64,000 bases of DNA, taken from NCBI RefSeq assembly GCF_000424465.1, contig NZ_KE384194.1, forward strand, positions 139,145 to 203,144, in the 5' to 3' direction. This document shows, piece by piece, positions 24,891 to 40,164 of this stretch. A program made the translations under genes and the position numbers. How positions within the stretch are numbered: position 1 is the stretch's first letter; each line of letters begins with the position of its first letter. The notes under the pieces are model-generated. The model did no database searches. It had not been told where the DNA came from and saw only the letters and a program-made list of their open reading frames with translations. The stretch is from Butyrivibrio hungatei NK4A153 (GTDB lineage Bacteria; Bacillota; Clostridia; Lachnospirales; Lachnospiraceae).

Positions 24891-24900
24891 TCAATATAGC

Positions 24901-24972
24901 TGGGCTAGTAGGATTCGAACCTACGTAATGACGGAGTCAGAGTCCGTTGCCTTACCGCTTGGCGATAGCCCA
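24901..24972 (-). tRNA. tRNA-Gln (CTG)
   Basis: The 72-nt minus-strand sequence folds as a cloverleaf: acceptor TGGGCTA/TAGCCCA, D-arm GCCAAGCGGTAAGGC, anticodon arm ACGGA-CTCTGAC-TCCGT with anticodon CTG reading CAG, and T-arm GTAGG-TTCGAAT-CCTAC. CCA is not encoded. Most Firmicutes carry TTG as the main tRNA-Gln, so this may be an additional CAG-specific copy. Confidence 0.96.
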
Positions 24973-36825: not shown

Positions 36826-37578
36826 TCATCCTTCTAAATGATACATAAGCCATGAAATAATCGTAAAACCTGCTGTCTCTGTCCTAAGAATTCTTTTTCC
36901 CAAAGTTATCGGAAGAACACCGTTTTCTTTTGCAATTGCCACTTCCTCTTCGGAAAATCCGCCCTCAGGTCCGATAAATACAGCAATGTTTTCACCGGGC
37001 TTAATACCCTCGATTATCTTTTTGGTTTCATCTATATGCTCTGCAAGTTCATAGGGTATGAGCTTTACATCGAGTTCTTTTGCATACTCTATTGCCTGCT
37101 TCATTGTCATCGGTTCTTTTACAGCGGGAATGACCGCTCTCTTACTCTGCTTGGCTGCCGCTTCCGCGATTGCCTGCCATCTCTTAACTTTTGACTCAGC
37201 TTTTTTTGCATCAAGCTTTACTATACACCTTTTTGTAGACATAGGTATAATCTCAAAAGCTCCGAGTTCAACAGCCTTCTGAATGATGAGCTCCATTTTG
37301 TCGACCTTAGGAAGCCCCTGGAAAAGATAGATCTTTGACGGAAGTTCATTCCCCACTTCCTCAACAAAGCAAAGCTTTCCCACAACGCTTGTCTTATTTA
37401 TTTCTTCAATCTCGTAAAAGAGCTCGCGGCCGTCGTTTTCCTCTTTGATACTTACGGAAAACTGCTCACCCACTTTCATCCTAAGGACATTGGCGATGTG
37501 ATTGTAATCGGATCCGACCATATCCACGCGTTTAAGATCGGGGCTCACCTGCGCGCTTTCAACAAAAAAATGATACAT
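36826..37578 (-). CDS. rsmE: 16S rRNA m3U1498 methyltransferase RsmE
   Basis: 250 residues of the SPOUT/DUF558 family: N-terminal PUA-like domain (MVGSDYNHIANVLRMKVGEQF) and knotted SAM-binding C-terminus with AVFIGPEGGFSEEEVAIAKE and LGKRILRTETAGFTIISW. It methylates U1498 of 16S rRNA. Start and prmA stop overlap as TGATG, so translation is coupled. The prmA-rsmE pair is conserved in Firmicutes. Confidence 0.95.
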   Translation of the reverse strand: MYHFFVESAQVSPDLKRVDMVGSDYNHIANVLRMKVGEQFSVSIKEENDGRELFYEIEEINKTSVVGKLCFVEEVGNELPSKIYLFQGLPKVDKMELIIQKAVELGAFEIIPMSTKRCIVKLDAKKAESKVKRWQAIAEAAAKQSKRAVIPAVKEPMTMKQAIEYAKELDVKLIPYELAEHIDETKKIIEGIKPGENIAVFIGPEGGFSEEEVAIAKENGVLPITLGKRILRTETAGFTIISWLMYHLEG

Positions 37579-38615
37579 CAGTTTTTCCTCGATGTGATAG
37601 AAACCCAGTCTCCCTGATGATGAATCTCAAGTATCTCAAGACCCGCATCAAGATGTGCTTTTTTTACTTCTTCCTCTTTGGTATTGATGATTCCCGATGT
37701 AATATATATTCCGCCGCTCTTAAGCTGATTCAATATAACGGGAGTCAGAGGAACAAGTACATTTGCCAGTATATTCGCAACAACGATGTCATACTTATCA
37801 TAGCCGACTTTATCCTGTATCTCTTTATCATCTATGATATTTCCAATCATCATCTCGAACTTATCGGGACTGATGTTGTTATTCTCCATATTCTCTTTTA
37901 CCGCGGGAACTGCGCATTTATCAAGATCTGTTCCGACAGCATGCCTGGCACCGAACATAAGAGAAAGAATTGAAAGCACTCCGCTTCCCGTTCCGACATC
38001 GAGAAGTTCGGTCTCGGGAGTCACGTATTTCCTCAACATTCTGATACAAAGCTGGGTCGTCTCGTGCATTCCTGTTCCGAAAGCTGTTCCGGGATCGATA
38101 TGAAGAACCATCTCTGCCTTCTCTTTGTCCTCATCCGTTTCTTTCTCCCATGAAGGAATAATGAGAACATCGTCTATATAAAACTTATGAAAGTACTGTT
38201 TCCAATTGTTGATCCAGTCAATGTCTTCCGTAACATCAACCGATATTGTTCCGTCACCGATATCTGTAAAAGCTCTGAGTTCAGCAAGCTTTTCCTTTAT
38301 CTTTTCAAGCATCTCATCGGGAGTTTTCTTAACCTTTACGTACTCGCCGTTATCATCGGGATACTCAACCGTAAGCATGTCATTATCATCGATTTCCAAA
38401 AAGAAATTGAGATAAGCGATTCCCTCTTCTATACCTGTTTCTTTTTCATCAGGCTCAAGTTCCGGCGCGTCAATAAACATCTGCTCTTTATCAGATGCAG
38501 TCAAAGGTGCGTTATCCTCTATCTGCGCGCCTTCAAGACCAATGTCTTCAAGGTAACTGATTATGATATCTTCTGCCTCTTCGTTTGTACGAACTCTAAA
38601 ACGCATCCATTTCAT
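37578..38615 (-). CDS. prmA: Ribosomal protein L11 methyltransferase PrmA
   Basis: 345 residues, somewhat longer than the usual 290-315 because of an N-terminal insertion rich in acidic residues (about 40-100). SAM motif ETELLDVGTGSGVLSILSL, the substrate-region HIDPGTAFGTGMHETTQL and VANILANVLVPLTPVI identify it. It trimethylates ribosomal protein L11. First gene of the prmA-rsmE-desulfurase-thiI unit. AGGTG lies 7 nt before the ATG. The 5' region holds the cloverleaf-like element. Confidence 0.94.
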   Translation of the reverse strand: MKWMRFRVRTNEEAEDIIISYLEDIGLEGAQIEDNAPLTASDKEQMFIDAPELEPDEKETGIEEGIAYLNFFLEIDDNDMLTVEYPDDNGEYVKVKKTPDEMLEKIKEKLAELRAFTDIGDGTISVDVTEDIDWINNWKQYFHKFYIDDVLIIPSWEKETDEDKEKAEMVLHIDPGTAFGTGMHETTQLCIRMLRKYVTPETELLDVGTGSGVLSILSLMFGARHAVGTDLDKCAVPAVKENMENNNISPDKFEMMIGNIIDDKEIQDKVGYDKYDIVVANILANVLVPLTPVILNQLKSGGIYITSGIINTKEEEVKKAHLDAGLEILEIHHQGDWVSITSRKN

Positions 38616-38644
38616 ATTTTTTCACCTATATATAATTGTAAATA

Positions 38645-38823
38645 TTTTGTGATATACGAATTGCTTCATGGCATACGCCATTCTCGCAATTCTACAGAAA
38701 TTCGGAAAACGCTAATTTACTTCGTAAATTGCTATTTCCTCATTTCTGTTCGGGTCATAAAGTCGAAATGCTACTCATGCAAGCATGCACGCATTTCCGA
38801 CTTATGACTCCTATATCACAAAA
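38645..38823. repeat. 179-bp cloverleaf-like inverted-repeat element upstream of prmA
   Basis: Outer 12-bp perfect inverted repeat TTTTGTGATATA (38645-38656) / TATATCACAAAA (38812-38823). Inside are three nested hairpins in a row: A at 38658-38692 (GAATTGC/GCAATTC, ATGGC/GCCAT); B at 38695-38748 (CAGAAAT/ATTTCTG, GGAAA/TTTCC, AATTTAC/GTAAATT, loop TTC); C at 38754-38808 (GTCATAA/TTATGAC, GTCG/CGAC, AAATGC/GCATTT, CATGC/GCATG). The whole forms a closing stem plus three arms on either strand. No open frame of note lies in it. Confidence 0.75.
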
Positions 38824-38853
38824 ACTTCCGTAGCTATTTCTAACTACGGAAGT
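38818..38853 (-). terminator. Terminator of the hrcA-grpE-dnaK-dnaJ operon
   Basis: On the minus strand ACTTCCGTAG pairs perfectly with CTACGGAAGT around a 10-nt loop and is followed by TTTTGTG. Its T-run overlaps the outer repeat of the cloverleaf element. Confidence 0.88.
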
Positions 38854-38881
38854 ATACCATACTTTAAAACATAAGGAAAAT

Positions 38882-40063
38882 TTATTTCCAGAATGATTTC
38901 TTCTTCTTACCACCGGGGCCGTCATTTCCGGGATCCTTGTCCTTGGAATCCATCATGCGCTCGGCCGCTGTAAGAGAATCACCTGTGAGCTCATCAAATT
39001 TCTTAAGAATGTCTTTCGCTTCTTTCGAGATTTTCTCGGGAACCTGAACAACAAGTGTTACATAGTGATCACCGCGAATTGTCTTATCTCTGAGTGAAGG
39101 AACACCTTTTCCGCGAAGTCTGACTCTTGTATCTGTCTGAGTTCCTGCCTTAACGTCATACGCAACCTTACCGTCAACGGTATCGATAAGAACCGTTCCT
39201 CCGAGAGTTGCAACCGCAAATGATACAGGAACCATAGAATAGATGTCATATCCCTCTCTCTGGAATATAGGATGATCTGAGATGATAACTTCAACAAGAA
39301 GATCTCCTCTCGGTCCGCCGTTTACTCCGGGTTCACCCTTATCACGGATTCTTACGCTCTGTCCGTTATCTATACCTGCAGGAATTGTAACCTGAATTTT
39401 CTTTCTGCTTGCGATATATCCTGTTCCGTGGCAATCTGTACACTTATCCTTGATAACCTTACCTGTTCCGCCGCACTCAGGACATGTCTGAACATTTCTT
39501 ACCGTGCCAAAGAAAGACTGCTGAGTATATACGATCTGGCCTTTTCCTCCGCACTTAGGGCATGTTTGCGCTGTAGTTCCGGGCTTAGCACCTGTTCCGT
39601 GACATGTCGGGCAGGGATCTTTTATTGTAAGTTCAAGCTCTTTCTCGCAGCCAAATACAGCCTCAAGGAAAGTGATCCTTACACTGGCACGCAGATTGGC
39701 GCCCTTGGAAGGGCCGCTTCTTGCGCCGCCACGTGACCTTCCGCCCCCGAAGAAATCGCCGAATATGTCTCCGAAAATATCTCCAAAGTCAGCACCGTTA
39801 AAATCAAATCCTCCGAATCCGCCGGATCCCCCTTCGAATGCAGCATGACCGAACTGATCGTACTGTCTCTTTTTCTCAGGATCACTAAGTACAGCATACG
39901 CTTCCGAAGCTTCTTTGAACTTCTCTGCCGCAGCTGAGTCTCCGGGATTCATATCAGGATGATATTTTTTAGCAAGTACACGATATGCTTTTTTAATCTC
40001 ATCATCCGAGGCACTCTTACTTACTCCGAGAACCTCATAGTAGTCACGCTTTTGCTCTGCCAT
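38882..40063 (-). CDS. dnaJ: Chaperone protein DnaJ
   Basis: About 393 residues: J-domain with YHPDMNPGD, Gly/Phe-rich linker ([20 protein letters not shown]), four CxxCxGxG zinc repeats ([32 protein letters not shown]) and the C-terminal substrate domain. Type I DnaJ, co-chaperone of DnaK. The ATG at 40063 follows GAGGAG by 4 nt; in-frame codons further upstream are not favoured. Last gene of the heat-shock operon. Confidence 0.96.
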
Positions 40064-40164
40064 AACACTCCTCAAATATCATCAAATTTTCTCTCTGTTT
40101 CGAAATGCTCCGAATAGCCAGGCGAATATTCGTCTGGCTATCAGAAACTTTATCGTAAAACTTA

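Follow-up and report, generated by a model that had tools for sequence, protein, structure and literature searches.

Organization of the dnaJ-prmA intergenic region

The window, a stretch of 64,000 nucleotides from Butyrivibrio hungatei NK4A153, carries on its minus strand dnaJ and, downstream of it, prmA, the two genes being separated by a terminator-like hairpin and a structured element (Table 1). The initial annotation had described the element as three consecutive nested hairpins enclosed by a perfect 12-bp inverted repeat. Both features were found: on the plus strand the arms of the closing repeat read TTTTGTGATATA (38645-38656) and TATATCACAAAA (38812-38823) and are perfectly complementary over 12 bp, and the three hairpins, named here P2, P3 and P4, are present in the predicted folds of both strands. 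The position between the dnaJ terminator (38853-38824, minus strand) and the prmA start (38615) was likewise borne out, and the closing helix, P1, overlaps the terminator in that the first four bases of its RNA-strand arm are bases of the dnaJ T-tract.

Table 1. Features of the dnaJ-prmA region (positions are those of the window).
Feature	Coordinates	Strand	Remarks
dnaJ, upstream same-strand gene	38882..40075	-	ORF as listed; true start may be internal; name as in the initial annotation
Terminator-like hairpin behind dnaJ	38824..38853	-	
Whole element, short form without 3' terminal repeat	38645..38823	-	85% identity to positions 1-168 of the 203-bp MITE
RF01699 Clostridiales-1 core	38648-38820	-	Covariance model match
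P1 5' arm (RNA strand)	38812..38823	-	Outer TTTT is part of the dnaJ terminator T-tract
P2 hairpin	38752..38811	-	Variable stem, conserved TGCTTGCA
P3 hairpin	38694..38749	-	Conserved ATGAGGAA ... TTCCGAAT
P4 hairpin	38658..38692	-	GCGAGA ... GAAGCAAT
P1 3' arm	38645..38656	-	RNA strand, 38656 to 38645: TATATCACAAAA
Spacer, element to prmA start	38616..38644	-	1/29 differences vs G050
prmA, downstream same-strand gene	37578..38615	-	Name as in the initial annotation

Folding of positions 38635-38833 gave minimum free energies of -69.4 kcal/mol for the plus strand and -79.8 kcal/mol for the minus strand, with z-scores of -9.75 and -10.03, respectively, and none of 200 dinucleotide shuffles folded as well on either strand. 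The structure is more than would be expected by chance and belongs to a known family. The element does not have the G+C-rich hairpin followed by a T run of an intrinsic terminator, and a terminator function was rejected, the hairpin behind dnaJ being the only one found in 38590-38900. A like hairpin is present behind dnaJ in several relatives that lack the element. The sole other Rfam match in the window is a tRNA gene (24900-24972, minus strand, 61 bits).

Identity and distribution of the element

The minus strand of the element, which is the strand of dnaJ and prmA, matched the Rfam family RF01699 (Clostridiales-1) over the full length of the model (positions 1-166 of 166) with 108.6 bits, the gathering score being 48. 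In the tabulated part of PMC2864571 the family is marked as probably an RNA ('y') and as not cis-regulatory ('n'). A stand-alone trans-acting small RNA, to which the Rfam type label 'sRNA' alone would point, is extremely improbable: no promoter-like site was obtained in a consensus scan of 38590-38900 (shuffled sequences gave 1.4), and most of the listed copies abut the end of another gene.

The same genome contains 14 DNA matches and 11 matches to the RF01699 model, nine of them over the cut-off, so that the search for further copies proposed in the initial annotation came out on the side of a mobile element. Across 41 genomes the model matched in 26 (25 over the cut-off; 1 to 32 matches each), including all 24 other genus genomes of the set and G040, a member of another family of the order with eight matches; the copy read in that genome (L037) has a different P1. 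An 18-base pattern from the 3' end occurred in at least 117 sequence stretches, and among the 80 matches listed 59 were titled Butyrivibrio, with single putative matches in other phyla; one exact 18-mer pattern, the only one searched in viral contigs, gave nothing there. Among the papers listed from the open PMC literature none was seen to join RF01699 with MITEs, mobility or stop codons. Sequence comparison firmly places the feature as a copy of a dispersed Butyrivibrio repeat, the transcript-sense strand of which is RF01699.

The copies analysed below form a set of 152, made up of the best-listed 150 places and two places in the same genome; weak copies are under-represented in it and one weak tandem place of the same genome was excluded. 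Subsets of 151, 150, 146 (35 A-type and 111 B-type) and 137 copies (with at least 700 nt on either side) were used. A-type copies are MITE-like and B-type copies are about 153 nt long; the classes are a rule of thumb and their counts differ slightly (36/114 vs 35/111).

The intact MITE and a matching insertion sequence

Some copies extend beyond the Rfam 3' end, and the intact unit is a MITE of 203 bp that consists of the 5' sequence TGATATAGGTGTCAAAAGT, the cloverleaf core and a 3' segment ending in ACTTTTGACACCTACATCA. With at most one mismatch, the 5' terminus GATRTAGGTGTCAAAAGT was found in 36 of the 61 genus genomes, the backward control pattern giving a single match in the 61. The 203-bp query matched 49 of the 61 genomes at E 0.001, many only partly, and two forms recurred, covering positions 1-203 and 1 to about 171. 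Five 203-bp elements inspected by eye had near-perfect 19-bp inverted ends and exact direct repeats of 5-6 bp on both sides (TTAATA, TTTAA, TTTGA, TATACA and TACTA). The family is thus short and multi-copy, as the 11 matches in the same genome indicate, and terminal inverted repeats together with a target duplication were present in all five of the intact copies shown.

In genome G070, another species of the genus, six copies of an element of 1,854-1,856 bp with matching ends were found, also flanked by exact direct repeats (TTTTA, TTAATA, TTATA, TAATAA, TAACA and TATTCA; by eye). Counting full elements and IS copies together, all 11 that were displayed had, by eye, exact direct repeats of 5-6 bp. 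The long element encodes a transposase of 532 amino acids with the domains PF05598 and PF13751, both over the Pfam cut-offs. The transposase, a candidate for the present mobiliser of the family, is rare: at a threshold of E 1e-30 it occurs in 5 of the 61 genus genomes, and a search at the same threshold revealed no match in the genome of the window. The IS with matching ends and the MITEs were displayed in different genomes.

The window copy has neither the 3' terminal repeat nor, by eye, a direct repeat at its ends and is best regarded as a truncated derivative, not as an intact MITE. These comparisons place RF01699 as the core of a MITE family, in which P1 is predicted to join the 5' end to an inner TATATCA and not the two transposon ends to each other. 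The view that the closing 12-bp repeat represents the terminal repeats of a mobile element did not hold: it corresponds to the inner helix P1, which takes in no more than the first bases at the 5' terminus. For the short copies a target duplication was not evident, since the direct-repeat score of the 150 listed copies (0.77 vs 0.50; 0/2000 shuffles) was weak within each class (A-like, 1.44 vs 1.19, n=36, 155/2000; B-like, 0.55 vs 0.42, n=114, 60/2000). A 139-bp derivative without P2 and with a GAGGTAGG terminus at one end was observed in G057 (L447 and L448, two copies viewed), a genome with 28 matches of the terminus pattern.

Occupied and empty sites

A model scan and blastn showed that the dnaJ-prmA gap is without RF01699 in 23 of the 25 relatives examined. 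The other two, G048 and G050, are nearer and share the insertion with the window, so that the window copy was probably inserted in their common ancestor. Two of the 23, G016 (L063) and G010 (L064), have a copy of RF01699 in the dnaK-dnaJ gap instead, on the opposite side of dnaJ, and the dnaJ-prmA gap of G002 (L066) carries a different repeated hairpin, TTCGCTACTAT...ATAGTAGCGAA. At the groES loci the element lies behind the stop codon in 2 of the 24 shown, and at the atpE loci in 4 of 14, with a remnant in one more. G019 carries one and the same 168-nt sequence in two locations, and G010 and G014 have copies that are 98% identical but differ in their flanks; both observations indicate recent movement. 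The mobile-element reading of the initial annotation is upheld by the many copies, the empty sites, the IS with matching ends and the 203-bp relatives, which are intact and show both terminal repeats and duplicated targets.

Comparison of the window with G050 (L445) revealed no difference over the 179 positions of the element, although prmA differs at 75 of 238 third codon positions, the spacer on the dnaJ side has changes at 9 of 57 sites, and the 600-base flanks diverge by about 12%. Divergence is low between about 38823 and the start of prmA. Other copies of the same genome are not so constant, as in the case of pheS, where the flanks are 99.5% and the element 91% identical. The constancy of the window copy would accordingly be due either to strong selection or to a short recombination tract.

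This constancy and the sense orientation before prmA speak for a structured leader or riboswitch specific to prmA. We consider such a leader very unlikely: it is absent before prmA in the 23 relatives mentioned, copies stand beside unrelated genes, and the lesser constancy of the other copies of the same genome leaves room for local recombination. As a general reading a prmA leader or riboswitch was rejected, no constant association with one gene or pathway having been found. The two explanations that the initial annotation had set against each other, a mobile element and a structured leader RNA, are not exclusive and both hold, the second in so far as the element matches RF01699 and covaries in its inner pairs (see below), but not as a leader that belongs to prmA in general.

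Position behind stop codons

In 104 of the 150 listed copies an ORF of 100 codons or more, located upstream on the same strand, terminates no farther than 10 nt from the P1 5' start. When ORFs of 150 codons were required, 82 of 137 listed copies were at a stop compared with 34 of 2740 positions chosen at random from these loci, and the mirror-image arrangement was seen in 7 of the 137. By the same 10-nt limit the stop-anchored listed copies comprise 91 of 111 B-type and 12 of 35 A-type. B-type listed copies are at a stop in 77 of 86 cases with a called downstream start and in 14 of 25 cases without one. In the former 77 the downstream start lies anywhere from -20 to 236 nt away, and in view of this loose spacing it is the stop codon, and not merely a short gap, that seems to act as the anchor. 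The copies include 25 clusters with related upstream proteins, although these are not all the same site and one of them consists of two copies in one genome. By resemblance, the upstream proteins are probably GroES, AtpE, PheS, thiolase, ribosomal protein S11, PurF and others. The window copy adjoins the T-tract of the dnaJ terminator instead of a stop codon.

Such positions would also arise if the mobilisation machinery of the family targeted stop codons or terminator T-tracts. The B-type copies that are at a stop without a called downstream start are consistent with this, as are the window copy and a few others that, by eye, abut terminator-like hairpins. We regard targeting as unlikely, since the duplications of the intact MITEs and of the IS are AT-rich and varied in sequence, and only about a third of the listed A-type copies (12/35) lie at stops.

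Pairing of P1 with host sequences

P1 was assessed copy by copy. In the 104 stop-associated listed copies the two arms pair at a frequency of 0.89-1.0 per position, as against 0.30-0.49 with swapped arms, the boundaries taken from the Rfam model favouring pairing inside P1 and not outside it. The P1 sequences differ greatly among these copies; P1 pairs with the last codons and the stop codon of the upstream gene and differs along with them. Pairing also continues outward from P1 into the flanks, with a mean of 1.69 bp against 0.48 (sd 0.06) in the 150 listed copies (0/2000 shuffles). RNAalifold left P1 out of the consensus fold of 55 copies, probably owing to misalignment of the ends by MAFFT.

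The atpE loci illustrate the correspondence. Differences in the stop codon region are matched in the opposite arm, TGATA by TATCA in G002 and G003 and TAACA by TGTTA in G009, and CTGCAG-TGATA (G002), TGCAG-TAACA (G009) and CCTACAA-TAA (G014) each stand opposite their own complement. In G009, where the 3' tail is duplicated, the changed arm is found in both copies of the tail. A counter-example is the thl copy of the window genome, in which TAA occurs where the copies of relatives have TGA, leaving, by eye, an uncompensated A-C mismatch in P1.

Agreement between P1 and the host sequence may stem from mutation and not from selection. The mechanism would be quasi-palindrome correction, in which template switching transfers the sequence of one arm of an imperfect inverted repeat to the opposite arm. 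The outward pairing of listed A-type copies (2.44 vs 1.28) and of copies outside operons argues for this explanation, and so do the pheS copies (L022/L477), where between flanks of 99.5% identity both arms of P2 have been replaced in concert; exchange or template switching thus contributes to the covariation. It leaves the stop-codon position unexplained, however, and by itself gives no account of the two-sided inner pairs that lie beside invariant columns, and as an explanation of P1 we hold it to be possible but rather doubtful.

Inner structure and variation of the modules

An alignment was built from 55 of the 71 stop-associated B-type copies (at most six per genome), 16 having been removed by hand without a fixed rule, and in it 34 of 40 predicted pairs showed at least one two-sided change. 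Thirteen columns were invariant in the 55 copies, some of them inside predicted pairs. Modules have been lost or multiplied: forms with fewer arms occur, the 3' tail is duplicated at atpE, the 3' side of P4 is duplicated in some other copies, and in the genome of the window (L196, G000:C1:149211-149563) further partial matches follow in tandem behind a stop-anchored copy. The tandem matches of L196 resemble a repeated P4 module with the P1 3' arm. Reduced copies that by eye look like P1 with one hairpin (P2 or P4) were observed at L008 and L359, G023 having the full form at that site. Such forms give the impression that an arm, when it disappears, goes as a complete module.

The tight one-sided position at stops, the loosely placed downstream start, the predominance of the sense orientation over its mirror image, the invariant columns and the clusters with related upstream proteins are consistent with an RNA device anchored to stop codons at the 3' ends of genes, which might serve in 3'-end protection or processing or in sensing ribosomes that terminate inside P1. 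Among the 60 listed copies with a shared gene, 16 also had their best match at the same site of the other genome, compared with a shuffled mean of 1.07 and a maximum of 6. For the remaining 44 the best match was elsewhere (35 in another genome and 9 in their own). The element is absent from 22 of the 24 groES loci and from 10 of the 14 atpE loci, one of which has a remnant; where sites are shared, the coding flanks are often better conserved than the element; and the window copy does not stand at a stop. Taking both sides, we view such a device as conceivable, though doubtful.

Interpretation

The best explanation overall, which we consider very probable, is that the element is a copy of a dispersed mobile repeat, RF01699 in the transcript-sense direction, whose RNA would fold in cis. 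RF01699 as a catalogued structured RNA is already known; its position at stop codons and its pairing with host codons are new.

Taken as a part of its own, the idea that the RNA, once the repeat has been inserted, folds out of the way of its host transcript is put forward tentatively, as a real possibility that falls short of the likely. P1 would bring the end of the upstream message (in the window, the U-tract of the terminator) beside the start of the downstream leader, and about 170 untranslated nucleotides would be kept compact, resisting exonucleases and the loading of Rho with little disturbance of the operon. Selection against badly closed copies would maintain the pairing of P1. For the window copy, the transcripts concerned would be those that read through from dnaJ into prmA. 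The least demanding view would be that of a selfish element with an RNA folded out of the way, P1 being kept closed by selection or by template switching. A stronger outward pairing of P1 in operons was not seen among the 146 listed copies and so gives no support for the fold-out idea, B-type operon copies having 2.36 of 6 pairs, stop copies outside operons 3.14 and copies not at stops 2.70.

A bolder formulation, speculative and rather improbable as a whole, would regard RF01699 as a mobile RNA which places itself at stop codons, has its closing helix rebuilt from the last codons of the host gene and is opened and reclosed by terminating ribosomes, and so would act as a termination-coupled 3' device across the operons of the genus. 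Apart from this formulation, the findings supply an origin for an RNA family that has been listed since 2010 without a function, and they describe a mobile element in which coding sequence of the host completes the RNA structure. That changes in the stop or last codons are matched by a helix arm about 150 nt downstream connects transposon RNA with translation termination and with operon structure in a directly testable way. The case also calls for caution, as covariation in a repeat family can come from the biology of mobile elements and from the exchange of hairpins, and not just from gene-specific regulation.

Comparison with known systems

The window element agrees with RF01699 as described in PMC2864571 in both sequence and structure along the entire model, with a score that exceeds the curated cut-off; the portions of that description considered here say nothing about mobility, terminal repeats, a position at stop codons or pairing with codons of the host. 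The G070 transposase has the two domains found in the IS1182 family, and its best NCBIfam model is IS1182, although the score of 124.2 stays under the equivalog cut-off of 270; the G070 insertion sequence is likely a divergent IS1182 relative. The REP/BIME elements of enterobacteria are likewise palindromic repeats that occur behind stop codons in operons, but they are linked to RAYT transposases and are not known to have such target duplications.

The pneumococcal BOX elements have the modular organisation boxA-(boxB)n-boxC (PMC3049150). In the sections of that paper drawn upon here, neither anchoring at stop codons nor pairing between a closing helix and codons of the host is described, and the likeness is one of organisation. 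What is shared is a small interspersed repeat that folds strongly when transcribed and in which modules, here P4, may be absent or in tandem, and by this analogy the BOX elements may be taken as the nearest working analogue of the repeat found between dnaJ and prmA.
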